Part shown: piece after piece, positions 3,440-55,178 of the stretch | Numbering within the stretch: the stretch's first letter is position 1 | Layout: each line of letters begins with the position of its first letter | Source of the DNA: Alphaproteobacteria bacterium | Lineage (GTDB): Bacteria; Pseudomonadota; Alphaproteobacteria; Micropepsales; Micropepsaceae | Direction of reading: 5' to 3' | Length of the DNA stretch: 64,000 nucleotides | Assembly: GCA_947473475.1 (NCBI GenBank) | Contig: CANJBZ010000015.1 | Coordinates: forward strand, 1 to 64,000 | Notes under the pieces: generated by a model | Databases searched by the model: none | Seen by the model: the letters and a program-made list of their open reading frames with translations, nothing else | What the model was told of the DNA's origin: nothing | Program-made: the position numbers and the translations under genes

Positions 3440-4534
3440 TCAGGCAGCAATTGGTTGCAGCGCCACTGCGAACCCCTCAACTGGGATTTTTGTCTCGTCA
3501 CGCGGCGAACATTCGATCAGTCCCATCACCTCAAGACCGCACGCCGGCGCTTCCTGCCGAAGGTAGGTTTCCGAATGGCGGAAACGCCGCTTGGGGCCCA
3601 GTTCATAGGTTTCGCCGTCAGCCCTTTCGACGGTGAAGAAAAAGAAGCCGTCCGCTTTCAGCCGCCGGCGCGCACCGGAAAACACGCGCGTCAAGTCTCC
3701 CAGATAAACAAGTGTGTCAGCCGCGAGAATCAGATCGTAGGCCGGGCCGGGCTCGTGGAGGACCGTCTCAATATCGCCCACGGTGAGCCCGCCGTAGATG
3801 CCGCGGGACCGCGCCGCTTCAATCATCCTGGGCGAAAGGTCGACACCATCGATCTTCGCGGCAAGGTCTTGGAAAGCGGCGCCCGAAAGCCCCGTGCCGC
3901 AACCGAGATCCAAGATCGTCAGCGTCTCCGGCTCCGCGAACATGATCATATCCGCGAGCCCGCGCAGGATGCGCGGCGCGCGATAAGACAGTTCGTCCAG
4001 CATCCGGCGGTCGTAATCGGCTGCGAATTGATCGAACAGATGCCGCACATAGCCGGGGGCCGAGCGGTTGGCCTGACGCATAACCTCAGCAGCGGTAATT
4101 TTCGACGCTGCTTCGGCGGCCAAAGTGGACGTATACGGAATGCCGGCCAAAATCTGTGCAGCCCGTTCCGCCTCTCCCGCTTCCAGCCAGGCCGAGCCCA
4201 GTGCCAGCCGGGCCGCATCGGAGGACGGAACGAGTTCGGCGGCGCGCTGAAACTCGGCGATGGCGGTGGGGAGATGGCCGCATGCCCGCAATGCTTCACC
4301 GAGCGCGACCGCCGCATCCGCAATACCGGGCGCAAGCGACGACGCTTCGCGCGCTACGGCAAGCGCCGCGGCCGTGTCGCCAGCCGCAAGCAGCGCGCGC
4401 GACAGTGCGATGCGTGTGAGAATGCCGTCGCGTCCGCTGGCCGCCGCCTTGCGCAGCAGCGCAACGGCGCGCGCTGATTCGCCCGCTTTGACCAGCGATT
4501 CGGCCTCGGCAATCGGATCGGATTTGGCGATCAT
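3440..4534 (-). CDS. TPR-containing class I SAM-dependent methyltransferase
   Basis: The 364-residue protein has about four TPR-like helical pairs in residues 1-140 (for example ADAAVALGEALRACGHLPTAIAEFQRAAEL). Its Rossmann-type methyltransferase domain has SAM motif I, TILDLGCGTGLSGAAF, near residues 206-221. Asp in KIDGVDLSPRMIEAAR fits the acidic residue that binds the SAM ribose, and LILAADTLVYLGDL is the motif IV region. TPR plus methyltransferase suggests methylation of a protein or of a substrate held by a partner; the target is unknown. It is monocistronic here, between the small secreted pair and the patatin gene. Confidence 0.88.
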   Translation of the reverse strand: MIAKSDPIAEAESLVKAGESARAVALLRKAAASGRDGILTRIALSRALLAAGDTAAALAVAREASSLAPGIADAAVALGEALRACGHLPTAIAEFQRAAELVPSSDAARLALGSAWLEAGEAERAAQILAGIPYTSTLAAEAASKITAAEVMRQANRSAPGYVRHLFDQFAADYDRRMLDELSYRAPRILRGLADMIMFAEPETLTILDLGCGTGLSGAAFQDLAAKIDGVDLSPRMIEAARSRGIYGGLTVGDIETVLHEPGPAYDLILAADTLVYLGDLTRVFSGARRRLKADGFFFFTVERADGETYELGPKRRFRHSETYLRQEAPACGLEVMGLIECSPRDETKIPVEGFAVALQPIAA

Positions 4535-21524: not shown

Positions 21525-22799
21525 ATGTCCGTCGAATCCACGCCAGACGAATCGGCTCTGCCCGCCTGGCTGAGGCCGCTTCCGCGCGTGTTCCGGCACC
21601 GGAACTACCGTCTGTTCTACGCCGGCCAGGGCATTGCCCTGATTGGCGCGTGGATTCAGACGGTGGCGCTTTCCTGGCTCGTATACCGGCTGACCCATTC
21701 GGTGTTTTTGTTGGGGGCCGTCACCTTTGCCACGCAGGCGCCGATTTTCTTCATTGCTCCGTTCGGGGGCGCGATTGCCGACCGTTATGACCGGCGCACC
21801 GTTTTTATGGTCACGCGCGCGCTGTGCATGGTGCAATCGATCGTCCTAACGGCCATGACATATTCCAATTCCATCGGCATCGGCACTATCCTGGTGCTTG
21901 CGCTCATTCTCGGCCTTATCACGGCGGTCGAGACGCCGGTGCGGCAGTCGTTCACCGTCGATATGGTGGGACGCGAAGATTTACGTCAGGCCATCGCCTT
22001 CAACGCGATGCTGTTCAACTTCGCGCGCACGGTCGGGCCTGCGGTGGGCGGGCTGATCGTAGCTTCCTTGGGTGAAGGGCTCTGCTTCCTGCTGAACACA
22101 ATCTCTTACGCCGCCGTTTTGAGCAGCCTGTTTGCGATGAAGACGCGGTCCAAAATCACGAAATCCCATACGCATCCTTGGCACGACCTGAAGGAAGGCT
22201 TTCGCTACCTCATCCACCATCCGCATCTGCGCATGGTGCTCTTCCTTTCGGCCATGTGCTCCTGCTTTGGTACCTCCTACCTCGCGCTGATGCCTGCGTT
22301 TGCACAAGACATCCTGCATGAAGGGGCCGACGGACTCGGTTACCTGATCAGTGCCTTTGGCATCGGCGCCATAGTTGGCGCGATCGTGGTGTCTCGCTTG
22401 CCGGAGCGCCGGCTTGCCCTGATGCCGACCGTGACCGCCGTATTGCTCGGGGCAAGCCTCGTCGCGTTCGCGAACACAAGCACCATATGGCTGGCCTTGC
22501 TTCTCGTTCTGCCCACGGGGTTCGGTTATCTTGGCGTGGCCGTTTCCAGCAACACGCAGGTGCAGACGCTATCGGACGATGCGATGCTCGGACGAACGAT
22601 GTCCTTCTACGCCATGGGGTCCCTTGGAACCCCGCCTTTCGGCGCGCTGCTGCTGGGTTATGTGTCCGATCTCATCGGTGTGCGGGGCGCCTTCATGCTG
22701 AGCGGCGCGATTTGTCTTATCGCTGCCGGGATTTCCCTGATGAGCCTGCGCCGGCGCGGGTTTCTGCAACCGGTTGTCCGCGAAAACGCTCAACCATGA
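21525..22799 (+). CDS. MFS transporter (EntS-like exporter family)
   Basis: The 424-residue protein has twelve predicted membrane helices. It matches the EntS/DUF894 exporter group: VFRHRNYRLFYAGQGIALIGAWIQTVALSWLVY at the N-terminus, the loop motif GGAIADRYDRRTV, then VETPVRQSFTVDMVGREDLRQAIAFNAMLFNFARTVGPAVGG. Members export siderophores, drugs and other small molecules. Its stop overlaps the ATG of the first GT41 gene in an ATGA arrangement, so it is probably co-translated with that five-gene array; what it exports is unknown. Confidence 0.9.
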   Translation: MSVESTPDESALPAWLRPLPRVFRHRNYRLFYAGQGIALIGAWIQTVALSWLVYRLTHSVFLLGAVTFATQAPIFFIAPFGGAIADRYDRRTVFMVTRALCMVQSIVLTAMTYSNSIGIGTILVLALILGLITAVETPVRQSFTVDMVGREDLRQAIAFNAMLFNFARTVGPAVGGLIVASLGEGLCFLLNTISYAAVLSSLFAMKTRSKITKSHTHPWHDLKEGFRYLIHHPHLRMVLFLSAMCSCFGTSYLALMPAFAQDILHEGADGLGYLISAFGIGAIVGAIVVSRLPERRLALMPTVTAVLLGASLVAFANTSTIWLALLLVLPTGFGYLGVAVSSNTQVQTLSDDAMLGRTMSFYAMGSLGTPPFGALLLGYVSDLIGVRGAFMLSGAICLIAAGISLMSLRRRGFLQPVVRENAQP

Positions 22800-25105
22800 T
22801 GGGCGGGGCGCCGGCAGCCGAACTGGTACGCAAGCTGCAGACCGCGGTTGCACTGCATCGCGACGGGCGGCTCGACGAGGCCGAGCGGTTTTATCGCGAG
22901 GTGATCCAGCAAGCCCCCGCGCAGCCCGATGCGCTGCATTTTCTCGGCGTGTTGGAAGGTCAGCGTGGACGACACGACGCGGCCCTTATGCTCATGGAGC
23001 GGGCTATCGCCATAAATCCGCGCCTGACCGCGGCGCTCTACAATCGCGCCAATCTGTTGCGCGAGTTGGGCCGGCGGGAAGACGCCCTGGCAGGATACAG
23101 CGCGGCACTGGCCGTCAAGCCGGACAACGCGGCGGCGCTGAACAATCGCGGCGCCGTTCTGGACGAGCTTGGGCGGCATGAGGATGCCATCGCCGATTTC
23201 GATCGTGTTCTGAGACTGCAGCCCGCCCACGCCGATGCGCATGTGAATCGCGGCAATGCCCTGCAGGCCCTCTCCCGCTTCGATGCGGCTCTGGCTGGTT
23301 ATGAACGCGCGCTCGCATTGGAACCAGGCAATGTCGCGGCGATCTATGGCAAAGCCAATGTGTTGGCCAGCGTTGGACGCGGCAGCGAAGCCCTTGCCGC
23401 CTACGACCGCGCACTCGCCTTGGGCGGCGAAAATGCGGACGTGCTCAGCAACCGCGCAAACCTGCTCGGAAACCTGCATCGGATCGATGCGGCGCTCGAC
23501 AGTTTTGCCCGCGCCATCGCGGCGGCGCCGGACCGCGTTGAACCGTATACCAATCGCGCGGTTGTCCTGATGCACGCATCACGGTTTGAGGAAGCGCGAA
23601 TGGACTACGAGCGCGCTCTGGCGATCAAACCGAACCACGAACCGGCGCTTTATGGACGAGGATCGGCGCTGATCGAACTCAACCGGCACGACGAGGCAAT
23701 CGCGGCTTTGCGCGAACTGGTGCAGCGCAATCCGGATTACCCGTATGCGCAGGGCATGCTGGTGCATGCTCAAAAGACGGCGTGCGATTGGCGTGATCCA
23801 GCCGCGGAAAGCGCGATGGTAGATGCCATCCGCGCCGGCAAACGCGTGGCAAGCCCGCTGACGCTGCTGGCGGCTTCGGACTCGGCGTCGGCGAAGCTTC
23901 TCTGCTCGCAAATTCTGGTGCGCGACAAGTACAGCGGGCCCTACCGCAGTCTCTGGAGCGGCGAGGCATTCCACCATGACCGCATTCGCATCGGCTATCT
24001 TTCGGCGGATTTGCGCGTTCATCCGGTGGCGACTCTGATGGCCGGTGTTTTCGAGCACCATGACCGTTCGCGTTTCGACACCATCGCGTTCTCCTACGGG
24101 GCCGGCGATGGCAGCGCGATGCGCGCGCGGCTCGTGCAATGTTTTACGCGCTTTCACGACATAGGCGGCTTAAGCGACGATGACGCCGCAGCCCTCATCC
24201 GCAAGAGCGAAATCGACATCCTCATCGATCTGACGGGCTTTACGGCGAGCGCCCGCACCGGAATTCTCGCGCTCCGCCCAGCGCCCGTACAGATCAACTA
24301 TCTTGGTTTTGCCGGTACCATGGGCGCACCCTTCGCGGATTATATCCTCGCCGATCGCATCGTGATCCCAGAGGCGCAAAAGCCGACCTACACCGAGAAG
24401 GTGGTTTACTTGCCCGGCTCCTATCTTCCGCACGATAGGACGCGGCGTATCGCCCCGGCGCCGTCCCGGGCCCAAGCCGGACTGCCCGAGGGCGCGTTTG
24501 TGTTCGCCTCCTTCAACAACAGCTTCAAATTGGCCCCTGCCACATTCGACGTCTGGATGCGGCTTCTGAAGGCGGTGGAGGGAAGCGTGCTGTGGCTGTC
24601 CGCGCCAAATCCCGCCGCCATCCGCAACCTGCAGCGGGAAGCGGAAGCCCGAGGCGTCAGCGCGGCCCGGCTGATCTTCGCCGCACGCGTGCCCGCGCCG
24701 GAAGATCACCTCGCACGGCTCGGGCTCGCCGATCTTTTTCTGGACACGCTTCCGTACAATGCTCATACCACCGCCATGGACGCTTTATGGGCCGGACTGC
24801 CGGTGCTCACGGCAATTGGGGAAAGTTTCGCGGGCCGCGTGGCGGCCAGCCTGCTTCATGCAGCCGAATTGCCCGAACTGGTGTGTGAATCGCTGGTTTC
24901 TTATGAGGCCGCGGCGCTGGCGCTGGCACGCAATCCAGGCCAGCTCGCAACTATCAGAGAAAAGCTGGCGGCCAATCGCGCCCGGTGCTCGCTGTTCGAC
25001 ACGGAGCGTTTCACGCGTGGTCTCGAGCGTGCGTACGGCGCGATGTGGCAACGCACCCAGCGCGGCCTGCCGCCCGAAAGCTTTGACGTAGAAGTCCTAC
25101 CATGA
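22796..25105 (+). CDS. TPR - O-GlcNAc-transferase-like (GT41/SPINDLY) protein, copy 1 of 5
   Basis: The start at 22796 (MMGGAPAAELVRKLQ) overlaps the MFS stop and gives 769 residues; the frame is open further upstream inside the MFS gene but that part is not native. About nine TPRs (residues 10-340, repeats such as ALYNRANLLRELGRREDALAGYSAALAVKPDN) lead into the GT41 domain from about residue 393 (RIRIGYLSADLRVHPVATL). The His equivalent to human OGT His498 is at about 409, Lys equivalent to Lys842 at about 578 (FNNSFK), and Asp equivalent to Asp925 at about 662. This predicts a UDP-sugar-dependent transferase acting on proteins; sugar and target are unknown. Confidence 0.93.
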   Translation: MMGGAPAAELVRKLQTAVALHRDGRLDEAERFYREVIQQAPAQPDALHFLGVLEGQRGRHDAALMLMERAIAINPRLTAALYNRANLLRELGRREDALAGYSAALAVKPDNAAALNNRGAVLDELGRHEDAIADFDRVLRLQPAHADAHVNRGNALQALSRFDAALAGYERALALEPGNVAAIYGKANVLASVGRGSEALAAYDRALALGGENADVLSNRANLLGNLHRIDAALDSFARAIAAAPDRVEPYTNRAVVLMHASRFEEARMDYERALAIKPNHEPALYGRGSALIELNRHDEAIAALRELVQRNPDYPYAQGMLVHAQKTACDWRDPAAESAMVDAIRAGKRVASPLTLLAASDSASAKLLCSQILVRDKYSGPYRSLWSGEAFHHDRIRIGYLSADLRVHPVATLMAGVFEHHDRSRFDTIAFSYGAGDGSAMRARLVQCFTRFHDIGGLSDDDAAALIRKSEIDILIDLTGFTASARTGILALRPAPVQINYLGFAGTMGAPFADYILADRIVIPEAQKPTYTEKVVYLPGSYLPHDRTRRIAPAPSRAQAGLPEGAFVFASFNNSFKLAPATFDVWMRLLKAVEGSVLWLSAPNPAAIRNLQREAEARGVSAARLIFAARVPAPEDHLARLGLADLFLDTLPYNAHTTAMDALWAGLPVLTAIGESFAGRVAASLLHAAELPELVCESLVSYEAAALALARNPGQLATIREKLAANRARCSLFDTERFTRGLERAYGAMWQRTQRGLPPESFDVEVLP

Positions 25106-27294
25106 ACGACACGCTCCTGCAGAGCGCCTGGCGGATGCAGCAGGCAGGTCAAACGATGGATGCCGCGCGCATCTATTCCGACATCCTGCGCGCCAATCCG
25201 CGCAATTTCGACGCCTTGTTTCAACTGGCCAATATTCACCTCGGCAACGGGCGCTACGGCGACGCCCAGCAGCTTTACGCGATCGCGGTCAAAGTGAACG
25301 CGGAGCGGCCGGACCTGTTCTACAATCAAGGCTGTGCGTTACAGAACCTTGGGCGCCCGCAAGAGGCGCTCATCGCTTACGCACACGCCTTGGCGCGCAA
25401 TCCCGATTATATGGAAGCACGCAACAATCGCGGCACCGTTTTGCTCGCGATGAAACGCTATTCCGAAGCGCTCACCTGTTTCGACCGCGTGCTGTCCAGC
25501 CGCCCGGATCTTTGGATGGTGCACAACAATCGCGGTACGGCGCTTTTGGGCCTGATGCGGTTCAAGGAAGCGCTGGCCGCGGCGGACGTTGTCTTGGCGC
25601 AAAATCCGCGCGATCCACAGGCCTTGTACAATCGTGGCGCGGCTTTGGTGCTGGCAGGGCGACGCGAAGAATCGCTCGACTGCTTCAACCAGGCGCTGCT
25701 GGCCGATCCTAACCATGCCGATGCGTATACGCACAGAGGCATCGTGCTGGCGATTCTGAACCGGCACGAGGAGGCGCTGGCGAATTATGACCGCGCTCTT
25801 TTCCTAAAGCCCGGCGATATTGAGGTTCTGTACAATCGCGCGACAACGTTCTGGTCGTTGAAGCAATTCGAGGTGGCAATGCGCGACCTCGAACAGGTTC
25901 TGACGATCGACCCTGATTATAAATATGCCCGCGGAACCTTGGTTCAGACGCGCTTGCAGTGCTCCGAATGGCGGGACCTCGCCGAACATGAGGAGAAAAT
26001 CGCCGCCGATCTCGCCGCGGGCAAGCTACGGCTCAATCCGCTGGCGAACGTTACGATTACCGATTCGCCCGCCGCGCTGTTGAAATCCGCACAGCTTTGG
26101 GTCGCGAACGAGTGCCCACCGCAACAGCCCGTCTGGAAGGGCGAACGCTACGATCATCAGCGCATCAGGGTCGCCTATATTTCCAGCGATTTCCGCCGCC
26201 ATGCGGTCGCGCAGCTTTCTGCGGGACTCTTCGAGCACCATGACCGCTCGCGCTTCGAGATTACGGCGCTGTCGGCGCTACCGGGCGATGGCACGCCCAT
26301 TCGGAGCCGCCTGGAAGAAGCGTTCGAGCATTTCATCGATGTCCATGACAGGAGCGATGACGAAATCGCGAAACTGCTGCGTGACATGGAAGTCGATATC
26401 GCCGTCGATTTGAACGGCTTTACACAGCACGCCCGCACCGCCGCATTTGCGCAGCGGCCATGCGGCGTACAGGTGAACTTTCTCGGCTTTCCCGGCACCA
26501 TGGGCGCGCCTTATATGGATTACATCGTCGGCGATCCGACGGTCATTCCGGAAGCGCATTGGCCCTATTTCCAGGAAAAAGTCGCCTATCTGCCACACAG
26601 CTATCTGCCGAACGATTCCGCGCGGGTCATTGCCGGGAAGACCTTCACCCGCACGGCGCAGGGTCTTCCGGAGCAAGGCTTCGTCTTCTGCACGTTCAAC
26701 AATCTGTTCAAGATCCGGCCGGAGATTTTCGACGTTTGGATGCGTCTGCTGCGCGGGATCGATGGCAGCGTTCTATGGCTGCCGGAACTGATCCGCAGCG
26801 CGATGGACAATCTCAGACGCGAGGCCGAGGCGCGCGGCGTTTCGGGCGAGCGGATTTGCTTTGCGCCGTTTGAGCCTTCGCCGGAGGACCATCTGGCGCG
26901 ATTGAAACTGGCGGATTTGTTTTTGGACACGCTGCCGTACAACGCGCATGCGACGAGTTGCGATGCGCTGTGGGCGGGCGTTCCAGCTTTAACTCGGATC
27001 GGTAACAGTTTTGCCGGGCGGGTCGGAGCCAGCCTGCTCAACGCGGTGGGGCTTCCCGAACTCATCGCTCAGACGCAGGATGAATACGAAGCCATCGCGC
27101 TGAAGCTTGCGCGCGAGCCGGCCATGCTGGCGGCGCTGCGTGATAAGCTCGCCCGCAACCGGCTGACCCATCCGCTGTTCGATACCGCCCGCTTCACGCG
27201 AAATCTTGAACGTGCCTTCACGACCATGTGGGAACGTCATCAGAGCGGGCTGGCGCCGGAGCATTTTGCGGTCGCCGACTCTCCGGCGCCATGA
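25102..27294 (+). CDS. TPR - O-GlcNAc-transferase-like (GT41/SPINDLY) protein, copy 2 of 5
   Basis: The start overlaps the stop of copy 1 (ATGA). The 730-residue product has about eight TPRs (residues 5-300) and a GT41 domain from about residue 351. Catalytic-site equivalents are kept: His in SSDFRRHAVAQL (about 367), Lys in FNNLFK (about 537) and Asp in TSCDALWAG. The GT41 middle block (DLNGFTQHARTAAFAQRPCGVQVNFLGFPGTMGAPYMDYI) has the RP-Q-x-x-LG-PGT pattern of OGT. No signal peptide is present, so it should act in the cytoplasm. It is more diverged from copy 1 than copies 1 and 3 are from the family consensus. Confidence 0.92.
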   Translation: MNDTLLQSAWRMQQAGQTMDAARIYSDILRANPRNFDALFQLANIHLGNGRYGDAQQLYAIAVKVNAERPDLFYNQGCALQNLGRPQEALIAYAHALARNPDYMEARNNRGTVLLAMKRYSEALTCFDRVLSSRPDLWMVHNNRGTALLGLMRFKEALAAADVVLAQNPRDPQALYNRGAALVLAGRREESLDCFNQALLADPNHADAYTHRGIVLAILNRHEEALANYDRALFLKPGDIEVLYNRATTFWSLKQFEVAMRDLEQVLTIDPDYKYARGTLVQTRLQCSEWRDLAEHEEKIAADLAAGKLRLNPLANVTITDSPAALLKSAQLWVANECPPQQPVWKGERYDHQRIRVAYISSDFRRHAVAQLSAGLFEHHDRSRFEITALSALPGDGTPIRSRLEEAFEHFIDVHDRSDDEIAKLLRDMEVDIAVDLNGFTQHARTAAFAQRPCGVQVNFLGFPGTMGAPYMDYIVGDPTVIPEAHWPYFQEKVAYLPHSYLPNDSARVIAGKTFTRTAQGLPEQGFVFCTFNNLFKIRPEIFDVWMRLLRGIDGSVLWLPELIRSAMDNLRREAEARGVSGERICFAPFEPSPEDHLARLKLADLFLDTLPYNAHATSCDALWAGVPALTRIGNSFAGRVGASLLNAVGLPELIAQTQDEYEAIALKLAREPAMLAALRDKLARNRLTHPLFDTARFTRNLERAFTTMWERHQSGLAPEHFAVADSPAP

Positions 27295-29378
27295 ACGGGG
27301 CGCTGATCGAGACAGCCCTCTCTTATCAGCGCGCCGGACGGTTCGACGACGCCGAACGGCTCTACCGGCAGATACTTCGCGACAATCCTAAGCACATCGA
27401 TGCCCTGTATCTGCTCGGCTCACTGGCGTTTCAGCGCGGTCGCGCGCAAGAGGCGCTTGACCGGTTCGATGAGGTCTTGCGGGCTCATCCGGGAGTGGCG
27501 GAAGCACTTTCCGCCAAGGGGGCCGTGCTCTCCAGTTTGGGCCGGCATCAGGATGCACTGGCCGCATACGACGCCTCTCTAGCGACGCGGCCCAATCAGC
27601 CGCAGGCCTGGAGCAATCGCGGCAACACTCTGCTGGCGCTCGGCCGGAGTATGGATGCGGTCCAGAGCTATGACCGCGCTCTCGCCCTGCTGCCGGATTA
27701 TCCCCATGCGCTACGCAATCGCGCCTCGGCCTTGGTTGCGCTTGGCCGATTGGATGACGCGCTGACCAGCGTGCAAAGGGCCTTGCAGCTTGCGCCCCCC
27801 TTTGCCGAGGCATGGCAGGACTGCGCCGGCATTTTGGTGCAGCTCGGGCGGCGTGACGAAGCGATTGTCGCCTACGACCGCGCTTTGGCGTTAAGCCCCA
27901 GCGATGCCGCCCTGCTCTATGGCCGGGCCAATGCGCTGTCCATTTTGAAGCGGTATGACGAAGCGATCCGGGACTGTGAAGCGGTTCTGTCAAGCCATCC
28001 CGACTATCCCTACGTCCGCGGCGTTCTAATCCAATCGAAACTGCAAGCCTGCGATTGGGGTGGGCTTGAAGGGCAGACGGAACAGATCTCGCGCGGCATT
28101 GCCGGTGCGCAGCGGGTGATCACGCCCTTCAACCTGAAGGCCTTGTCGGACTCGCCGGCAGAGCATTTGCAATGTGCCCGGAATTGGATCGCGCACGAGA
28201 TTTTGCCCGCGGCGACGCCGTCCGCGCCCCGAGCGGGGAGGACGCACGATCGCATCCGGCTGGCCTATGTCTCGGCTGATTTCACCAACAGCGCGGTGGC
28301 CAGTTTGATGGCCGGTGTCTTCGAGCATCACGACCGAGGCCGGTTCGAAGCGATTGCCGTCTCGTTTGGACCGGAAGACCGTATCCCCATGCGCATGCGG
28401 CTTGAAGCGGCATTCGAGCGATTCATCGATGTGCAAAGAATGAGCGATGCGAAAGTCGCTGCGGCGCTGCGCTCCATGGAAGTCGATATTGCCGTCGATC
28501 TGATGGGCCTGACGGGCCCGTGCCGAACCGGAATTTTTGCACACCGGGCCGCACCCGTTCAGGTGAACTATCTCGGCTTTCCCGGAACCATCGGCGCCCC
28601 GTTCATGGATTACATCGTGGCGGACGCGACCGTCATCCCCGATGGGCAGCACATTCACTACGCGGAGAAGGTGGTCACACTGCCCCATTGCTATCTGCCG
28701 CCCGGCGACAGGCGCGCTATCCCGGAACGTCCGCCCACACGCCAAGAAGCAGGTTTGCCGGCGAGCGGCTTCGTTTTTGCCTCGTTCAACAATGCCTACA
28801 AATTCAATCCGGCAATGTTCGACATCTGGATGAACCTGCTGCGCGCGGTCGAGGGAAGCCTGCTGTGGCTACCGGAAAACAACGCCTATGCCCGGCGCAA
28901 TCTGATCCGCGAGGCAGAACGGCGCGGCGTATCGGGCGAGCGGATTGATTTTGCCCCTTTGCTGCCGGATGCAGGCGCGCACTTGACCCGGCTTTCATGT
29001 GCCGATCTGTTTCTGGATACCTGCCCCTACAATGCCCACACCACATGCATGGATGCGCTATGGGCTGGGCTGCCCGTGGTGACGTTCATGGGCAACAGCT
29101 TTGCCTCGCGCGTGGCGGCAAGCGCGTTGAAAGCGGCCGGCATGGCGGAGCTGATCGCCGAAAGCGCGCAGTCGTACGAGGCGCTCGCCCTGGCACTGGC
29201 GCGCGAACCAGCCCGGCTTCAAGCGATCCGGTCAAAGCTGGCCGGGCAGCGAAGCACGGCGCCGCTCTTCGACACAAAACTTTTCACGCGTGGCCTGGAA
29301 GCCGCTTTTATGACGATGTGGGAGCGGCAACAGAGGGGCGAACCGGCGGCGCCCTTTGTTGTCGCGCCGTGCGCCTAA
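27291..29378 (+). CDS. TPR - O-GlcNAc-transferase-like (GT41/SPINDLY) protein, copy 3 of 5 (active-site variant)
   Basis: It overlaps copy 2 by four bases (ATGA); 695 residues. About seven or eight TPRs (residues 5-275) precede the GT41 domain from about residue 318. Lys in FNNAYK (about 504) and Asp in CMDALWAG are kept, but the motif that reads FxxHxV in the other copies is here SADFTNSAVASL: Ser at about residue 334 replaces the His equivalent to human OGT His498. The fold-defining motifs (NYLGFPGTIGAPFMDYIVAD) are intact. It may have altered or lost activity, or act as a partner of the other copies. An ORF start upstream (27228) lies inside copy 2 and is not used. Confidence 0.9.
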   Translation: MNGALIETALSYQRAGRFDDAERLYRQILRDNPKHIDALYLLGSLAFQRGRAQEALDRFDEVLRAHPGVAEALSAKGAVLSSLGRHQDALAAYDASLATRPNQPQAWSNRGNTLLALGRSMDAVQSYDRALALLPDYPHALRNRASALVALGRLDDALTSVQRALQLAPPFAEAWQDCAGILVQLGRRDEAIVAYDRALALSPSDAALLYGRANALSILKRYDEAIRDCEAVLSSHPDYPYVRGVLIQSKLQACDWGGLEGQTEQISRGIAGAQRVITPFNLKALSDSPAEHLQCARNWIAHEILPAATPSAPRAGRTHDRIRLAYVSADFTNSAVASLMAGVFEHHDRGRFEAIAVSFGPEDRIPMRMRLEAAFERFIDVQRMSDAKVAAALRSMEVDIAVDLMGLTGPCRTGIFAHRAAPVQVNYLGFPGTIGAPFMDYIVADATVIPDGQHIHYAEKVVTLPHCYLPPGDRRAIPERPPTRQEAGLPASGFVFASFNNAYKFNPAMFDIWMNLLRAVEGSLLWLPENNAYARRNLIREAERRGVSGERIDFAPLLPDAGAHLTRLSCADLFLDTCPYNAHTTCMDALWAGLPVVTFMGNSFASRVAASALKAAGMAELIAESAQSYEALALALAREPARLQAIRSKLAGQRSTAPLFDTKLFTRGLEAAFMTMWERQQRGEPAAPFVVAPCA

Positions 29379-29399
29379 TTATGGTTCATTGCGGCCCGC

Positions 29400-32099
29400 A
29401 TGAACGATCATATTTTGCAGAATGCATGGCGGCTGCATCAGGCCGGACAGTTCGACCAGGCAGCCCGGCTCTATAACGAGGTGCTGCGGGCCGACCCGCG
29501 CCATTTGGGCGCGCTGCAAATGCTTGGCTATCTGCATTTCCAGAAGGGCGAGCTTGCCGATGCCGACCGGCTGATGCAGCGGGCCCTGAAACTGAACCCG
29601 AATTCCGTCGATATCCTTTATAACCGCGGCTGCGTGCAGCAGGCGATGGAACGGCCAAAGGATGCGCTTGCGGCCTTCGATCGCGCGCTGGCGCTGAAGC
29701 CCGATTATGCACCGGCGATGGTCAACCGCGGCAACGTGCTGGCGCAACTGGGACGCTTCGCCGACGCGCTGGCGAGCTATGATCTGGCGCTCGTTATGAT
29801 GCCAGCTTCCGGAGAACTGCTTCTCAACCGCGGCAATGCCCTTTTTGAAATGGGCCGCTTTCGCGAAGCCCTGCAAAGTTACGAACAGGCCCTCGCGAAA
29901 GAACCGCAACAGCCGCTTCTGTGGAACAATCGCGGCAACGCGCTGGCGGAACTTGGACGCGCTCAGGACGCGGTCGCGAGCTTCACGCGGGCCATTGCGT
30001 TGGTCCCGAACGATCCGGATTGTTACGTCAGCCGCGCGGGGCAACTTGCAAAACTCGACCGCACGGCGGATGCGCTAAGCGACTACGAGAAGGCGATCGC
30101 CCTCGATCCAGCCCATATCGCGGCCATTCACAGCCGCGGGCGGCTGTTACGGCAGACAAATCGTCTCACGGAGGCGCTGGCGAGCTTCGAGCGGATATTG
30201 GCTATCGAGCCGAAACACGTCGAAGCGGTCGTCGATATCGGTGTCGCGCTGATGGATTTGAAGCGCAACGAAGAAGCGCTCGCCGCCTTCGACAAGGCGT
30301 TGGCGATTCAACCCGGTCATATGGAGGCGCTGATCGACCGCGCCAGTGTGCTGTTGCGGTTGAGGCGCTTCGAGGAGGCGCGCGCCGATGCGAGCCGCGC
30401 ACTAGCAGCAGACGGCAACAGCGCGGCCGCATGGCATAACACAGGCACGGCGCTGTCGGGGCTGAAGCACTATACGGACGCCCTGCCCTACTTTGACAAG
30501 GCCATCGCTCTGGCGCCTGGTAACGCGCCCTCTTGGAGCAATCGCGGCGGCGCTATGATCGCGCTGAAGCAGGAAGAAGCGGCGATCCCTTACATCGACA
30601 AGGCGCTCACCCTCAATCCGCGCGATCCTGAAGCGTGGGTCAACCGGGCGCGCGCTTTTACCGGCGTGAAGCAACTCGGTCCCGCCATTGAAGCGTGCGA
30701 TCGCGCGCTGCAAATCGATCCGGACCACAGCGCGGCGATGCGCGCTGGGATTCATGCGCGCCTGCATGCCTGCGATTGGACGCGGCGCGACGAAGACAAA
30801 CGGCGCATCACAGCGGGGTTGGCCGACGGCGTGCGCATCGTCAATGTGCTGGACCATCGGGCGCTCTGTGAATCCGAAAGCGAAAGCCTGAAAGCCGCGC
30901 GCCTTTGGATAAAGGAAGAGTTCCCCGCATCCATCGCGCCCCTCTGGCGCGGCGAGCGTTACAGCCACGACAAACTCCGCATAGCCTACATCTCCACGGA
31001 TTTTCGCGACCATGCGGTGGCGTTTCTCATTGCCGGCTGTTTCGAGCACCACGACAAGAGCCGTTTCGAAACGACGGCCATCTCGCTGCAGGCCGGCGAC
31101 GGCAGCGAAACCCGCCGTCGTATCGAAACAGCTTTCGACCGCTTCATCGATGTGACGCAGATGAGCGATGCCCAAGCCGGCGCGATGCTACGCGAACAGG
31201 AAATCGACATCGCCATCGACTTGAACGGCTATACAGGCAATGCGCGCACGGGAATTCTGGCGCACCGGCCGGCGCCAGTGCAGGTCAACTATCTGGGTTA
31301 TCCAGGCACGACGGGCGCGCCGTTTATGGACTACATCATCGCCGATCGCATCGTCATCCCGGAAGAGAACCGCGTCCATTACAGCGAGCAGGTCGTCTAT
31401 CTGCCGCATGCCTATCAGGCAAACGACCGCAAACGCCGGATTGCGGAGCATACGCCGACCCGCGCTGAGGCGGGATTACCGGACACAGGATTTGTTTTTG
31501 CCTGCTTCAACCACACGCACAAAATTGGGCCGGAGATGTTTGGTATCTGGGCCCGGCTTCTGCAGCGGATCGAGGGCAGCGTGCTCTGGCTGTTTGAAGA
31601 CAATGCGCTGGCAGCGGCGAATTTAAGGCATCAGGCGGCGGCGCGCGGCATCGCTCCGCAGCGGTTGATCTTTGCGCCGCGCGTGATGCCGCCTGAGCAT
31701 CTGGCGCGCATACAGCTCGCCGATCTTTTCCTCGACACCCTCCCCTACAATGCGCACACCACAGCCAGCGATGCATTTTGGATGGTATTGCCCTTGGTCA
31801 CCTGTCCGGGAAAAACCTTTCCGGCGCGCGTGGCGGCGAGCCTGTTGCACGCTATCGGATTGCCGGAACTCGTGACGCATTCGCTGGAAGAGTATGAGGC
31901 GCTGGCGTCCGCGCTGGCGCGCGATCCGGCCCGTCTGGCCGCAATCCGGGCCAAGCTGCTGCGAAATCGGGATACCGAACCGATGTTCGATACCGCGCGA
32001 TTCACGCGCGATTTGGAATCGGCTTACACCACAATGTGGAAGCGGCAGCAGGCCGGACTGGCGCCCGAAAGTTTTGCGGTACCGGCGGATGCGTGTTGA
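29400..32099 (+). CDS. TPR - O-GlcNAc-transferase-like (GT41/SPINDLY) protein, copy 4 of 5 (longest TPR arm)
   Basis: This copy follows copy 3 after 21 bases. At 899 residues it is the longest: about thirteen TPRs fill residues 1-490, including a near-regular 34-residue series (ALASYDLALVMMPASGELLLNRGNALFEMGRFREAL and so on). The GT41 domain starts near residue 522. Catalytic-site equivalents are present: His in STDFRDHAVAFL (about 538), Lys in FNHTHK (about 708) and Asp in TASDAFWM. In the OGT family the TPR superhelix selects the protein substrate, so a different arm length implies a different target or binding mode. Confidence 0.92.
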   Translation: MNDHILQNAWRLHQAGQFDQAARLYNEVLRADPRHLGALQMLGYLHFQKGELADADRLMQRALKLNPNSVDILYNRGCVQQAMERPKDALAAFDRALALKPDYAPAMVNRGNVLAQLGRFADALASYDLALVMMPASGELLLNRGNALFEMGRFREALQSYEQALAKEPQQPLLWNNRGNALAELGRAQDAVASFTRAIALVPNDPDCYVSRAGQLAKLDRTADALSDYEKAIALDPAHIAAIHSRGRLLRQTNRLTEALASFERILAIEPKHVEAVVDIGVALMDLKRNEEALAAFDKALAIQPGHMEALIDRASVLLRLRRFEEARADASRALAADGNSAAAWHNTGTALSGLKHYTDALPYFDKAIALAPGNAPSWSNRGGAMIALKQEEAAIPYIDKALTLNPRDPEAWVNRARAFTGVKQLGPAIEACDRALQIDPDHSAAMRAGIHARLHACDWTRRDEDKRRITAGLADGVRIVNVLDHRALCESESESLKAARLWIKEEFPASIAPLWRGERYSHDKLRIAYISTDFRDHAVAFLIAGCFEHHDKSRFETTAISLQAGDGSETRRRIETAFDRFIDVTQMSDAQAGAMLREQEIDIAIDLNGYTGNARTGILAHRPAPVQVNYLGYPGTTGAPFMDYIIADRIVIPEENRVHYSEQVVYLPHAYQANDRKRRIAEHTPTRAEAGLPDTGFVFACFNHTHKIGPEMFGIWARLLQRIEGSVLWLFEDNALAAANLRHQAAARGIAPQRLIFAPRVMPPEHLARIQLADLFLDTLPYNAHTTASDAFWMVLPLVTCPGKTFPARVAASLLHAIGLPELVTHSLEEYEALASALARDPARLAAIRAKLLRNRDTEPMFDTARFTRDLESAYTTMWKRQQAGLAPESFAVPADAC

Positions 32100-33753
32100 C
32101 GCCCTCACTGCCGCTGCGAAGGCACATTTCGACGCGGGGCGCTTCGAGGATGCGCTGCGCCTGATACAGGCAGCCGCTTCCGCCGAACAGAACTCACCTC
32201 AGCTGTGGAGCAATTGCGGCACTATCCTGGTCGCACTGCACCGTTTTGCCGAGGCGGAGGATAGTTTTTCGCGTGCGCTGTCACTCGCGCCCGATTTCGC
32301 GGGCGCGCTACAGAACCGCGCGCAGGTGCGTATGCGGCTGCACCGCTATCAGGATGCCGCGCGGGATTACGAGGCGCTTCTGGCGCGCAATCCCGGCATA
32401 CCCTTCGCGCAAGGGTCGCTGCTGCGGGCAAAACTGCAAGCCTGCGATTGGGAGGGATTACCTGAACACTGGACGCGGGCCGACGAGGAATTGCGGGCCG
32501 GGAAGCCGGTTTTGACCGCGATAGCCGCGACCGCCTTGTGCGAGACGCCGGAAGATCAGTTGCGGGCCTCGCGCACACTGGCGCAGACGCGATTTCCCCC
32601 GCGCCCACCTCTCTGGAAAGGCGAACGCTATCGCCACGACCGCATCCGTATCGCCTATGTGTCCGCGGATTTCCATGCTCACGCCACCACGATCCTGGCA
32701 GCTGGGCTTTTTGAATCGCACGACCGAGAAAAGTTCGAGACGTTCGCCGTTTCGTTCGGGCCGAACGATCACAGCGCGATGCGTACGCGTGTCGAAAGAG
32801 CGTTCGAGCATTTTTTCAGCGTCGCCGGTAAGAGCGATATGGAAATAGCCCAGCTCCTGCGACAGAACGAAATCGATATCGCGGTCGATCTGAAAGGATT
32901 CACTGACGACTCCCGGCCTGGGATTTTTGCCTCACGGCCTGCGCCGCTGCAGGTGAATTACCTCGGGTTTCCGGCGACGATGGGCGCGCCTTACATCGAC
33001 TATATTATTGCGGACGCGGTCACGATTCCGCCGGAGGACCAGCTGTTTTACAGCGAGAAGGTGGTCTATCTGCCGGATACCTATCAACCCAACGACCGTG
33101 GCAGAGAACATCCCGAAGTGACGACCACCCGTACCGAGGCGGGACTGCCGGAGAATGGTTTCGTCTTCTGCTGCTTCAACAATGTCTACAAGATAACCGC
33201 CACCGTGTTCGACGTCTGGATGCGATTGGTACGCGATGTGCCGGGAAGCGTTTTGTGGCTGCTCGAAGACAACGAAACGGCGATGCGCAATTTGAAACGC
33301 GAAGCAGAGAAGCGCGGCGTTACGCCGGAGCGGCTGATCTTCGCCCCGCGTGTAGCGCCGGACGCGCATCTGGCGCGGCATTGCTTCGCCGATCTGTTTG
33401 TCGATACCGCGCCTTACAATGCGCACACCACCGCCAGCGATGCGCTGTGGATGGGGCTGCCCCTTGTCACCCGCGCCGGGCGGACGTTTCCGTCACGTGT
33501 TGCGGCATCGTTGCTGTACGCGGCCGGGGCGCCCGAATTGGTGACCCATTCCCTGCCCGCGTACGAAACGCTGGCTCTTTCGCTTGCCCGCGAACCGGAA
33601 CGCCTCCGCGCACTGAAGGCGAAATTGGAGAAGGCGCGAGACACCGCGCCGTTGTTCGACACCCTGCGCTACACACGCAATCTCGAACGCGCCTTTGTCA
33701 CGATGTGGGAACGCCAGCAGCGCGGCGAGACGGCGGAAAGTTTCGCGGTATAG
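32089..33753 (+). CDS. TPR - O-GlcNAc-transferase-like (GT41/SPINDLY) protein, copy 5 of 5 (shortest TPR arm)
   Basis: The best start is ATG at 32089 (MRVDALTAAAKAHFDAGRFEDAL), which overlaps the end of copy 4 by 11 bases; the longer frame (from 31894) would sit in the middle of copy 4. The 554-residue product has only three to four TPRs (residues 1-130) before the GT41 domain at about residue 182. His in SADFHAHATTIL (about 198), Lys in FNNVYK (about 368) and Asp in TASDALWMG are kept. It is the last gene of the array; the next gene is on the other strand. Confidence 0.92.
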   Translation: MRVDALTAAAKAHFDAGRFEDALRLIQAAASAEQNSPQLWSNCGTILVALHRFAEAEDSFSRALSLAPDFAGALQNRAQVRMRLHRYQDAARDYEALLARNPGIPFAQGSLLRAKLQACDWEGLPEHWTRADEELRAGKPVLTAIAATALCETPEDQLRASRTLAQTRFPPRPPLWKGERYRHDRIRIAYVSADFHAHATTILAAGLFESHDREKFETFAVSFGPNDHSAMRTRVERAFEHFFSVAGKSDMEIAQLLRQNEIDIAVDLKGFTDDSRPGIFASRPAPLQVNYLGFPATMGAPYIDYIIADAVTIPPEDQLFYSEKVVYLPDTYQPNDRGREHPEVTTTRTEAGLPENGFVFCCFNNVYKITATVFDVWMRLVRDVPGSVLWLLEDNETAMRNLKREAEKRGVTPERLIFAPRVAPDAHLARHCFADLFVDTAPYNAHTTASDALWMGLPLVTRAGRTFPSRVAASLLYAAGAPELVTHSLPAYETLALSLAREPERLRALKAKLEKARDTAPLFDTLRYTRNLERAFVTMWERQQRGETAESFAV

Positions 33754-33819: not shown

Positions 33820-33865
33820 ACCTCCCACTTGTGGGGAGGTCGAAATTGATGTGTTAGCCCCGCCG
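33820..33865. repeat. palindromic repeat between convergent genes
   Basis: A hairpin ACCTCCCAC / GTGGGGAGGT (one bulge) spans about 33820-33840, and a G/C-rich second half follows (CCCCGCC...GGGGGAGG, about 33857-33882, which runs up to the M16 gene end). The pattern is a common intergenic repeat of Alphaproteobacteria. It separates the GT41 array from the convergent M16 gene and may help stop transcription; no T-tract follows. Confidence 0.55.
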
Positions 33866-33887: not shown

Positions 33888-36620
33888 CTATTGCGGGGGT
33901 GGGCCTTGGCTGATGCGAACCAGATCGTTTGGGCGTATCCATTTCTTGAAGGCGGTCTGAATCTCGACCGGCCCCAACGCGATGTAACGTTGCGCGGCGC
34001 GCGTCGGTTCATCGAAGGGCAAGTCCAAATCCCAGCGTCCGGCGAGGCCGCGCGCGATCCCTGAGATGCTGGACTCACCAAGCGGAATCTGCCGCAGCAT
34101 CAACGCTTTCACGCGCTGCAGCTCTTCGGCGGTCACCGGCTCGTCCTGCATCTTCTTCAGTTCCTGCGCGATGATTCCGCTGGCCTTTGAGACATTTTGC
34201 GGATCGGAGGCGAACTGAATGAAATAGTTCGCGCGCGTGCGTCCGGCGTTCATGTCGGCGCCCACCGAATAGACCAGCCCGGCATTCTTGCGCAGATCGA
34301 TGGAGAGGCGCGTCGAATAGAAACTGCCACCCAGAACCGCATTGCCCAATTGCAGCGCGTAATAATCGGGATGCGCGCGATTGATCGGGATTGTCTGGCC
34401 GAGCACGACCATGTTCTGCACCCGGCTTTCATCCGGCACCGCCACAATCTTGGACCGGTTGTTCGGCACGACCGGCAAGTCGATGGGCGGCTTCTCGCCG
34501 CTCGCGGTCCAGCCGCCGAAATACTTCTCGGCCACTTCGCGCGCACGCTGCGGGGTCACACGTCCCACCATGACGATGGTTGTCAGGTCGGGCCGGAAGG
34601 CCTTGCGGTAATAGTTGACGATGTCTTCGCGTGTCAGAGAAGTTACGCTTTCCGGGGTCGCGTCACGCAGCGAAGGATCCCCCGCGGGGAACAGAGCTTC
34701 CCGCAGATTGCGCTGCATCAGGTAACCGGGGCTTTTCATCTGGGCGGCAACCACCCGCGCCACCTGGCCCCTCACAACGTTCAAAGCTTCCTGCGGAAAG
34801 GCTGGGTGAAGTTCATTATCCGCCAGAAGCTGAACGCCGCGGTCGAGATCGCGCGTCAGTGTTTGCACCGAGAAATCCGTTCCGGCGCTTTCCGATGCGC
34901 CGATGTCGTCCAGCGCCTTCTGGAAGGCAACGCGGTCGAGCGTTTCGCTGCCGTACTCGAACAGCTCGCCCATCACCTGGGAAAGGCCTTCCTTGCCTTG
35001 CGGCACGTTCAATTCGGGCCGCGATTTGATATGGCCGTAGATGGTGACGGTATCGCTCACGTCTTCGGGCTGCACGACAAGGGTCAAACCGTTGGGCAGT
35101 ACACTGACGGTAGGGTGTACGCCGGACGCAGGCACCGAAAGCCGATTCAGCGCGCTTTCGGCCCAATCGGGAAGCTTGGTGCCCTGCGCCTCACCCAGCG
35201 CAATGCTTTCCTGCCCGCCAAACCCGCCCGATGCCACAGGACTGCCCGAGCCGCGCGGGACCAAAACAGCGGTGATGGCGTGATCGATATCCAGATAGCG
35301 GCGGGCAACGCGGTTCACATCCGCCACGGTGACTTTCCGGATACGCTGCAAATCTTCATCCGGCGAACGCAAATTGTAGACCGCAACCGCTTCGGACCAG
35401 ATGGAGGCGAGCCCGTCGATGGAATTTTTCTGAAATTCCGCCTGGCGCTCCTCGGCGATTTTAGCCGCCTCGACCAGCTCCGGGGAAACGCCGTCCGCGA
35501 GGATTTTCTTCAACGTCGTGCGCAGCTCGTTTTCGGCGGCTTTGGCATCCCCATCCGCAGGATAGGAAATCGAGGCATAGGCCATGCCGACTTTCGGCAG
35601 CGGATCGAGCGAGAAGCCCGTTGCGAGCGCCTTGCCCGCCGGAACCAACTCATACAGATCGCCGCGTTCGCTGTTCAGCACGTCAGACAGAACCTCAAGC
35701 GCGGGGAAGTCCGGGCTGTCGAGGCCGGGCATCCGCAGGGCCAGCACGGCCCCCCCATTGGGATTGTCGGTCGGGATGGATATGGGGGCCACGCTCTGCA
35801 ACGGCTTGGGATTGATCGCCGGATGGGTGCCGAGAGTCTTGCGCGGGATCGAGCCGAACAGCGTGCGTATTTTCGCAAGCGTCGCCTGCGGGTCGAGATT
35901 GCCGGCGACAACAAGAATGGCGTTATTCGGGGCGTACCATTTGTCGTAGAAAGTCTTCAGGTCGGCCGCCGTGGTTTTCTCGAAAGACGGGCGCGAGCCC
36001 AGCGCGTCGTGCTCGTAGGGCGTTCCGGCAAACACGATTTCGCGCAGCTTCTGGAACATCACATAATTGGGGCTGGAAAGGTCTTGCGCGACTTCCTGCG
36101 AGATCGCGCCGCGTTCCTGATCCCAGTCCTTGGCATCCGCATTCATGCCCTGCATGCGCGTGGCTTCGATACGCAGAGCGACGTCGATGTCTTCGGACGG
36201 CACCGTGAAGAGATATTGCGTAAGGTTCTCGCGCGTATTGGCGTTGAAGTTTCCGCCCATGATGCTGCCGATCGCGGCCAGCTGATCGGCAGTCAAGCCC
36301 GGACTTCCGCGGAACATCATGTGTTCCAAAGCGTGGGCCGTGCCGGGGAATCCATCCGGTGTGTCGTTGGACCCGACGAGATAATTCACCGATGTCGCCA
36401 CCACCGGCGCAAGCGTATTGCGGACCAGAATGACCCGCAGTCCGTTCGGCAGCGTCGCGCGCAGAATGCCCGGTTCGCTGGCGGTTGCTGCAGCGGCTTG
36501 AGCGGGAGGCGGCGCCGGGTTGATAAATCCGGCAAATCCCAGAGCGGCCAGAGCAACGCCGCCGAATATGAAGCTCGCAAACGCAAGTTTGCTCGCCCTA
36601 GGTGCGCGAGATTTGCCCAT
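33888..36620 (-). CDS. M16 family zinc metalloprotease (two-domain, secreted)
   Basis: The 910-residue protein starts at the ATG at 36620, with AGGAG eight bases upstream. A signal/anchor helix (residues about 11-33) precedes the protease. The inverted zinc motif HALEH (His96, Glu99, His100) and downstream ERGAISQEVAQD, which supplies the third ligand, are intact in the first half. The second half (from about residue 460, GVHPTVSVLPNGLTLVVQPEDVSD) is the related inactive domain. The length is the normal pitrilysin-like two-unit size. It is likely periplasmic and degrades peptides; the physiological substrate is unknown. On the opposite strand there is an 816-codon open frame, a high-GC shadow. 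Confidence 0.92.
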   Translation of the reverse strand: MGKSRAPRASKLAFASFIFGGVALAALGFAGFINPAPPPAQAAAATASEPGILRATLPNGLRVILVRNTLAPVVATSVNYLVGSNDTPDGFPGTAHALEHMMFRGSPGLTADQLAAIGSIMGGNFNANTRENLTQYLFTVPSEDIDVALRIEATRMQGMNADAKDWDQERGAISQEVAQDLSSPNYVMFQKLREIVFAGTPYEHDALGSRPSFEKTTAADLKTFYDKWYAPNNAILVVAGNLDPQATLAKIRTLFGSIPRKTLGTHPAINPKPLQSVAPISIPTDNPNGGAVLALRMPGLDSPDFPALEVLSDVLNSERGDLYELVPAGKALATGFSLDPLPKVGMAYASISYPADGDAKAAENELRTTLKKILADGVSPELVEAAKIAEERQAEFQKNSIDGLASIWSEAVAVYNLRSPDEDLQRIRKVTVADVNRVARRYLDIDHAITAVLVPRGSGSPVASGGFGGQESIALGEAQGTKLPDWAESALNRLSVPASGVHPTVSVLPNGLTLVVQPEDVSDTVTIYGHIKSRPELNVPQGKEGLSQVMGELFEYGSETLDRVAFQKALDDIGASESAGTDFSVQTLTRDLDRGVQLLADNELHPAFPQEALNVVRGQVARVVAAQMKSPGYLMQRNLREALFPAGDPSLRDATPESVTSLTREDIVNYYRKAFRPDLTTIVMVGRVTPQRAREVAEKYFGGWTASGEKPPIDLPVVPNNRSKIVAVPDESRVQNMVVLGQTIPINRAHPDYYALQLGNAVLGGSFYSTRLSIDLRKNAGLVYSVGADMNAGRTRANYFIQFASDPQNVSKASGIIAQELKKMQDEPVTAEELQRVKALMLRQIPLGESSISGIARGLAGRWDLDLPFDEPTRAAQRYIALGPVEIQTAFKKWIRPNDLVRISQGPPPQ

Positions 36621-36744
36621 GAAAATGCTCCTGAAAACGATGGATAGCGGCATGAAACGCCCGGACGGCGAACCCGTCTATCTTAGTTCCGCAAGCGTTA
36701 CATTGTAACGTTTCTTTATGGTCTTCACGTCCGCGTGGGTGAAA

Positions 36745-54323: not shown

Positions 54324-55178
54324 TTAGAAGTCCGGAGTCTTCGCCTCCGGCATGGGATATTCCTGCAGATTGAAAAATGTCTCGAAGGCCGTGTTGTTCT
54401 CGGCGCAGATCGATTCCAGGATCGTGCCGCGGTCGACTTTCTGCCAGCGCACGGTCCCGGACCAGGGCTGATTGAACGTACCCGGATCATCGACCGTGAC
54501 GGTAGCTTCCAGCCCTTTGCCGCCTTCGGTCAGCTTGAACCGCTCCACCACATGCATGTCCTTCGTGTGGGGCGTGCGCCAGTTGTCTACGAAATCGAAT
54601 TCGTGCTTGTCGAGGAAGCCAACTGTGTCCACGACCAGTTCGCCGTTTTCATAATGGCCGACGGACTCGCCGAACCAGGACGGCTTTACAGTGCGCGAAT
54701 GCGGCACGTTCAAATAGATGCGTCGGACTTCCTGCTGGCGCTGCCAGATGATCCACACTTCTTTGGGCGTCTGGACAAAGAAGATCGGCTCGGCAGGGAA
54801 CAGCAATTGCCCCGGCGTCCCGCCCGGCCAACAGCGCGACTGGGATGAGAAGGCGCGGTGGCCGTCCAGCACATCCTTATTGTACTTGCGCATAACCTCT
54901 TTCGCCCACGGCTTGAGGTTCGCATTCTCCGCGTCGGACATGCGCTCCATCACGCCGCGCTGGTTTCCCTCACCCAATTGCGGATAGGCCGGATCGAACG
55001 CGATGGGCGCCACTTTTCCGGGAATAGGCCGGAAATTGATGCCGCCCTGCAACAGCCAGCCCGATTCGATAAAGCTGAAATTCGGGATGGATTTGTCCTG
55101 CGCCCTCGAGCCCGCCACCAGCCCCGCCGTGACGAACGCGGCCAACGCCGCCGCACATAGCAATCGGGTCTTCAACAT
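54324..55178 (-). CDS. secreted 'KPSW' family protein, paralogue D of 4
   Basis: The 284-residue protein has a signal peptide (MLKTRLLCAAALAAFVTAGLVAGSRA) after a strong GGGGGG-rich ribosome site. It carries CWPGGTPGQLLFPAEPIFF, YLNVPHSRTVKPSWFGESVGHYENGELVVDTVG, RTPHTKDMHVVERF and ICAENNTAFETFF, and ends AKTPDF. It starts the minus-strand set with the cupin, cytochrome and PQQ dehydrogenase. Two paralogues of one family flank that set, which suggests they are paired accessory proteins or different binding partners. Confidence 0.85.
   Translation of the reverse strand: MLKTRLLCAAALAAFVTAGLVAGSRAQDKSIPNFSFIESGWLLQGGINFRPIPGKVAPIAFDPAYPQLGEGNQRGVMERMSDAENANLKPWAKEVMRKYNKDVLDGHRAFSSQSRCWPGGTPGQLLFPAEPIFFVQTPKEVWIIWQRQQEVRRIYLNVPHSRTVKPSWFGESVGHYENGELVVDTVGFLDKHEFDFVDNWRTPHTKDMHVVERFKLTEGGKGLEATVTVDDPGTFNQPWSGTVRWQKVDRGTILESICAENNTAFETFFNLQEYPMPEAKTPDF

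Follow-up and report, generated by a model that had tools for sequence, protein, structure and literature searches.

The window, a 64,000-nucleotide stretch of DNA on contig C15 of an alphaproteobacterial genome, contains five intact genes that lie head to tail on the + strand at 22796-33753, each encoding a TPR part followed by a GT41 domain (ORFs and Pfam). Judged by sequence, the products are putative protein glycosyltransferases with the TPR-GT41 makeup of XcOGT, and their coupled arrangement is unusual. We consider it moderately probable that they are five related cytoplasmic protein O-glycosyltransferases, produced in a coupled manner, which use a UDP-sugar as donor and have dedicated acceptors, likely surface proteins. 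Taken one by one, the enzymes are unremarkable for their family. The open-library papers that we searched for multicopy bacterial GT41 describe no arrays that are coupled, conserved, and in part fused and that mix donor pockets; this absence is weak evidence.

Gene order and domain structure of the array

Copy 1 (22796-25105; PF13844, E value of 1.7e-80) has a TPR part of ~395 aa, and its GT domain begins at ~23981. It is followed by copy 2 (25102-27294, 730 aa; 4.7e-82; GT domain from ~26161), copy 3 (27291-29378, 695 aa; 4.6e-78; GT domain from ~28251), copy 4 (29400-32099, 899 aa; 2.2e-86; GT domain from ~30972), and copy 5 (32089-33753, 554 aa; 1.3e-87; GT domain from ~32641). These coordinates include the stop codons. 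All five copies have N-terminal TPRs upstream of the GT domain (Pfam). The earlier note had placed the proteins in GT41, and a profile search agreed: PF13844 (Glyco_transf_41) matched the C-terminal halves of all five significantly, with E values of 5e-78 to 1e-87 and 263 to 295 bits versus a cutoff of 25.

In the DNA sequence, copies 1 and 2 and copies 2 and 3 are joined by ATGA overlaps, copies 3 and 4 are separated by 21 bases, and copies 4 and 5 overlap by 11 bases. The earlier note had reported five coupled genes with these junctions, and the coordinates, the DNA, and Pfam all bore this out. It made no mention of a further ATGA overlap (22796-22799) between the start of copy 1 and the end of an MFS transporter gene (MFS_3; 21525-22799, + strand; PF05977, 1.5e-63). 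The MFS gene is probably on one transcript with copy 1, and translation of the array genes is probably coupled. The five enzymes are probably made from one transcript. Scans for promoters and terminators in the array found no signal above chance. On its 3′ side the array converges with an M16 peptidase gene (33888-36653, - strand; PF05193/PF00675), and a hairpin, CCTCCCACTTGTGGGGAGG, present as a single copy in the window, lies between the two at 33821-33846. The GC content of the array is the same as that of the remaining window, so nothing here points to recent acquisition. The five GT domains share 56 to 60% pairwise identity, so they form a divergent family rather than a repeat created by assembly.

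An AlphaFold model of copy 5 (pLDDT of 96.1 and pTM of 0.93) had XcOGT as its best PDB match (2jlb; TM of 0.92, 32% identity) and matched SPY folds with a TM of ~0.8. XcOGT (XCC0866 of Xanthomonas campestris; PDB 2jlb and 2vsy) likewise combines TPRs with a two-lobe GT41 domain and has no intervening domain. However, XcOGT is described as one enzyme, whereas the genome studied here has fifteen such domains, coupled arrays, and TPR parts of very different lengths. Within the window, copy 4 has the longest TPR part (~13 repeats) and copy 5 the shortest. Asn is found at the peptide-binding TPR position in 40/97 repeats, as expected of protein-binding TPRs; in SPY, substrate binding depends critically on the Asn ladder (PMC9715652). 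The TPR superhelix and Asn ladder are shared with human and Drosophila OGT, from which the array proteins differ in having no intervening domain and in being encoded by five genes in one run. When copy 5 was scanned with the HMW1C N-glycosyltransferase model (NF049992), the score was 21.6 bits versus a cutoff of 1000. In the mechanism that we propose, each TPR superhelix, differing in length from copy to copy, would bind an extended segment of the protein that is its own substrate, and the conserved GT-B domain would then transfer a single sugar to Ser or Thr. The donor would be a UDP-sugar, though probably not UDP-GlcNAc.

Copy number and history of the GT41 family

The genome (3.87 Mb in 66 contigs) carries 15 intact GT41 domains in 14 ORFs at five places: five domains on C15, five on C2, two on C5, two on C30, and one on C26. 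A genome search for extra copies thus bore out the expanded family seen in the window. C2 holds a second five-gene array, which ends directly upstream of NADH dehydrogenase subunit genes. Between its copies 1 and 2 lies an internally deleted GT41 remnant (L059:13234-13631), in one frame with one stop, in which an N-terminal TPR (the first ~43 residues of a copy) runs in frame straight into the final ~90 residues; it is a sixth copy minus its middle. On C5, a single 1286-aa ORF (L060:4938-8798) holds two complete TPR-GT41 units. The 14 GT domains outside C26 are 50 to 69% identical among themselves, and the C26 domain is an outlier at 41 to 48%.

When the class was sampled evenly, any GT41 match was present in 143 of 387 genomes, and 63% had none. 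The statement that most bacteria have none or one therefore holds roughly, but several genomes equal or exceed this one: seven candidate-rich genomes, when fully counted, gave 31 to 76 matches versus 31 in our genome, so the expansion is unusual but not unique. Two further kinds of arrangement were observed in metagenome-assembled genomes (MAGs). A Hyphomicrobiales MAG (L084; JAFBAS010000096.1) encodes six GT41 domains that are closely related and spread over four ORFs, representing an independent, more recent expansion, and two Chlorobiaceae MAGs (L097 and L154) have single ORFs of 2030 and 2186 aa with two to three GT41 domains each.

The earlier note had explained the array by tandem duplication at the site. 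In a careful tree of 45 GT41 domains, an approximately unbiased (AU) test on a constraint grouping the five window copies rejected them as one clade (p-AU of 0.0043). The copies fall in at least two subgroups, which are also mixed in other loci. Copy 4 forms a clade with G001 C64 copy 2 (support 98/97; one further row lies inside the clade), and copy 3 pairs with G002 C314 copy 2 (99/88); these partners, from other species, sit at the same locus. For copy 1 the partner is L131 of a Hyphomicrobiaceae MAG (96/86). Support is poor for the partners of copies 2 and 5. Synteny gives the same picture. In G001, the same MFS and M16 genes enclose a colinear array of four copies, whose best matches run 2, 3, 4, 5, and copy 2 is the best match of its positional counterpart, G001 C64 copy 4. 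The M16 flank is 72 to 73% identical in G001 and G002. Nonmonophyly and synteny in G001 and G002 together rule out recent tandem duplication. Because flanks and colinear copies are shared with other species of the genus, and in view of the tree, the array predates the species, its members having since been gained, lost, and fused. The C5 locus is also shared, with the order gamma-glutamyltranspeptidase, GT41, histidine kinase common to relatives: the GT41 genes are separate and tandem in G003 and G006, fused in our genome, and apparently fused in G002, whose contig ends inside the gene.

The G001 counterparts are 55 to 57% identical overall (48 to 55% in the TPR part and 58 to 64% in the GT part, by alignment), versus 59 to 75% for five flanking genes, among which the LutC flank, at 59%, is nearly as divergent. 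Divergence that is faster than in most flanks fits enzymes dedicated to different acceptors. We propose that the 15-enzyme family grew before the species of the genus split and that copies have since been kept, lost, or fused while diverging at this pace. The same record could be read as drift, in which the copies are mostly redundant survivors, few of them active or distinct in substrate, and the array is a tolerated expansion. Copy number is indeed patchy, starting at ~2 in the genus and running from 0 to ~11 among close relatives; the C2 array contains a deleted remnant; divergence is fast; and in G004 the M16 gene has no GT41 array beside it. However, the catalytic Lys, Arg, and Asp are kept in all 15 domains, and part of the array has been retained in order in another species. 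We consider drift unlikely.

Catalytic residues and the sugar donor

Active-site residues were read by alignment to the human OGT sequence, for the 15 domains of this genome and 156 domains in total. The conservation of the active-site Lys and Asp, already noticed for the window, was confirmed and extended: the catalytic Lys (human Lys842) is found in 15/15 own domains and in 156/156 aligned, and the Asp925 equivalent is found in 15/15, including all five window copies. An equivalent of the uridine-reading Arg904 is likewise present in 15/15, and no own domain has Lys at the human Leu866 position. Thus, the uridine recognition of a strict O-GlcNAc transferase is in place. Its small Cys917-type residue is not: this position is Tyr in 13/15 own domains and in 5/5 window copies. 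Cys occurs there solely in two neighboring copies of the C2 array, so that Tyr-type and Cys-type donor pockets stand side by side in that array. Copy 2 has Ala at the human Thr921 position and copy 3 has Ser at the human His498 position; these secondary changes count against our preferred explanation.

Cys917 is reported as a residue that admits or excludes the N-acetyl group of the donor (PMC9715652, PMC10027727). XcOGT (Tyr463) and TtOGT also carry Tyr at this position, and their O-GlcNAc activity was weak or not found (PMC9715652); TtOGT, whose pocket is alike, had no activity in vitro (PMC4683255), which also counts against our preferred explanation. Given the Tyr and these papers on the residue, a UDP-sugar smaller than GlcNAc and without an N-acetyl group is the more likely donor. 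Since the Cys917 feature is lacking, we did not class the window copies as O-GlcNAc transferases, and the earlier proposal of O-GlcNAc as the modification is not supported.

Could the copies nevertheless be genuine O-GlcNAc transferases, forming a regulatory system that acts on many cytoplasmic proteins? Human and fly OGT are the closest solved eukaryotic relatives, and Arg904 and Lys842 are kept as in those enzymes, but Tyr in place of Cys917 makes GlcNAc use doubtful, and no neighbor points to regulation. A GH84 O-GlcNAcase gave no match in the genome, which speaks weakly against O-GlcNAc cycling with GH84, as no control genome matched in that search either. We regard such a regulatory system as decidedly unlikely.

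Candidate acceptors

Among called ORFs of ≥150 aa, the window has no Ser/Thr-rich member (highest Ser+Thr content, 14.7%), in agreement with the earlier observation that it encodes no flagellin or other obvious target; the only flagellin matched in the genome is on contig C7. The lack of a substrate gene beside the window array counts against the explanation that we prefer. Elsewhere, the neighbors are more informative. Across 78 named loci, 8 of 16 Ser/Thr-rich ORFs lie within 400 bp of a GT41 gene versus 102 of 692 other ORFs (Fisher p = 0.001), with the eight ORFs coming from 7 of the 78 loci, a cutoff set post hoc, and loci that are not independent. The eight comprise four flagellins (a pair on either side of one gene in Beijerinckia, plus one each from Burkholderia and a MAG), three ALTTAQ proteins, and one protein that matched nothing in Pfam. 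A C26-type GT41 gene adjoins an ALTTAQ-repeat protein in 5 of 61 genomes, all of this family, and ALTTAQ occurs in one other of the 61. In our genome, C26:55164-60507 (L061:5165-10508) encodes a 982-aa ALTTAQ-repeat protein (33% Ser+Thr), then a TPR-GT41 protein, and then an FkbM methyltransferase; a model of an ALTTAQ piece had low confidence (pLDDT of 69.6) and was left aside.

This enrichment makes surface-protein glycosylation the best-supported candidate function of TPR-GT41 proteins. It fits the precedent of FlmG of Caulobacter crescentus, also a soluble alphaproteobacterial TPR-glycosyltransferase protein, whose TPR part binds flagellin (PMC7591256), and the occurrence of GT41 (COG3914) genes with a SPINDLY-family domain in enterobacterial flagellin glycosylation islands, that is, in surface-protein modification loci (PMC4875605). 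By analogy with FlmG and flagellin and with the neighbors in relatives, the likeliest acceptors would be exported or surface proteins modified before export. The modification of many cytoplasmic proteins suggested by the earlier note finds nothing to support it, the informative neighbors being a flagellin or a Ser/Thr-rich ALTTAQ-repeat protein. The locations do differ: the islands lie at the flagellin gene and have one to three glycosyltransferases each, whereas the window array is flanked by an MFS gene and an M16 peptidase gene. If the acceptor were instead a surface polysaccharide, a lipid, or another nonprotein molecule, with the TPRs as a scaffold, the missing link between the window array and a protein substrate would be accounted for. 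We give this idea little credence in view of the TPR Asn ladder, whose counterpart in SPY is critical for substrate binding (PMC9715652), of the characterized GT41 relatives in the cited papers, which act on proteins, and of the flagellin and ALTTAQ neighbors in relatives.

FlmG uses pseudaminic acid and requires NeuB (PMC7591256). NeuB was not found in our genome, while controls gave matches, and a pseudaminic acid donor was ruled out; unlike FlmG, the window array has no flagellin beside it. SPINDLY-type protein O-fucosyltransferases with GDP-fucose are very improbable, since the TPR-GT41 architecture, the SPY-like fold, and Tyr at the SPY Tyr744 position are shared but the guanosine-reading Lys689 (paired in SPINDLY with Ala731) is absent, the uridine-reading Arg is kept, and Asp stands at the human Asp925 position, each in 15/15 (PMC10027727).

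Most of the bacterial OGT-like enzymes known so far come from single genes with no substrate assigned. The genus studied here has retained such genes in coupled arrays at conserved positions, and the presumed sugar-selecting residue varies naturally among them. Such arrays are a ready test set for the choice of acceptors by TPRs and of donors by GT41 domains, and the recurrent pairing of TPR-GT41 genes with flagellins and ALTTAQ-repeat proteins points to specific proteins as candidate substrates of at least some members. It is conceivable, if on the unlikely side, that the arrays are a combinatorial system, a reservoir of glycosyltransferases with differing acceptor-reading superhelices and donor pockets, in which loss, fusion, and fast divergence would reshuffle the sugars on surface proteins, perhaps under phage or grazer pressure.

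Some other neighbors were recorded. The protein encoded at 54327-55178 (- strand) of the window has an N-terminal signal-like stretch, and relatives lie near GT41 in three loci (L070, L165, and L174); it had no Pfam or NCBIfam match, and the family was set aside as a meaningful neighbor. In three genomes of the genus, a TPR plus arginine-methyltransferase-like gene lies beside GT41, a hint of combined modification. Another TPR-fused methyltransferase is encoded at 3443-4534 (- strand) of the window, and further TPR-fused modifying enzymes occur in L060, L062, and L163.
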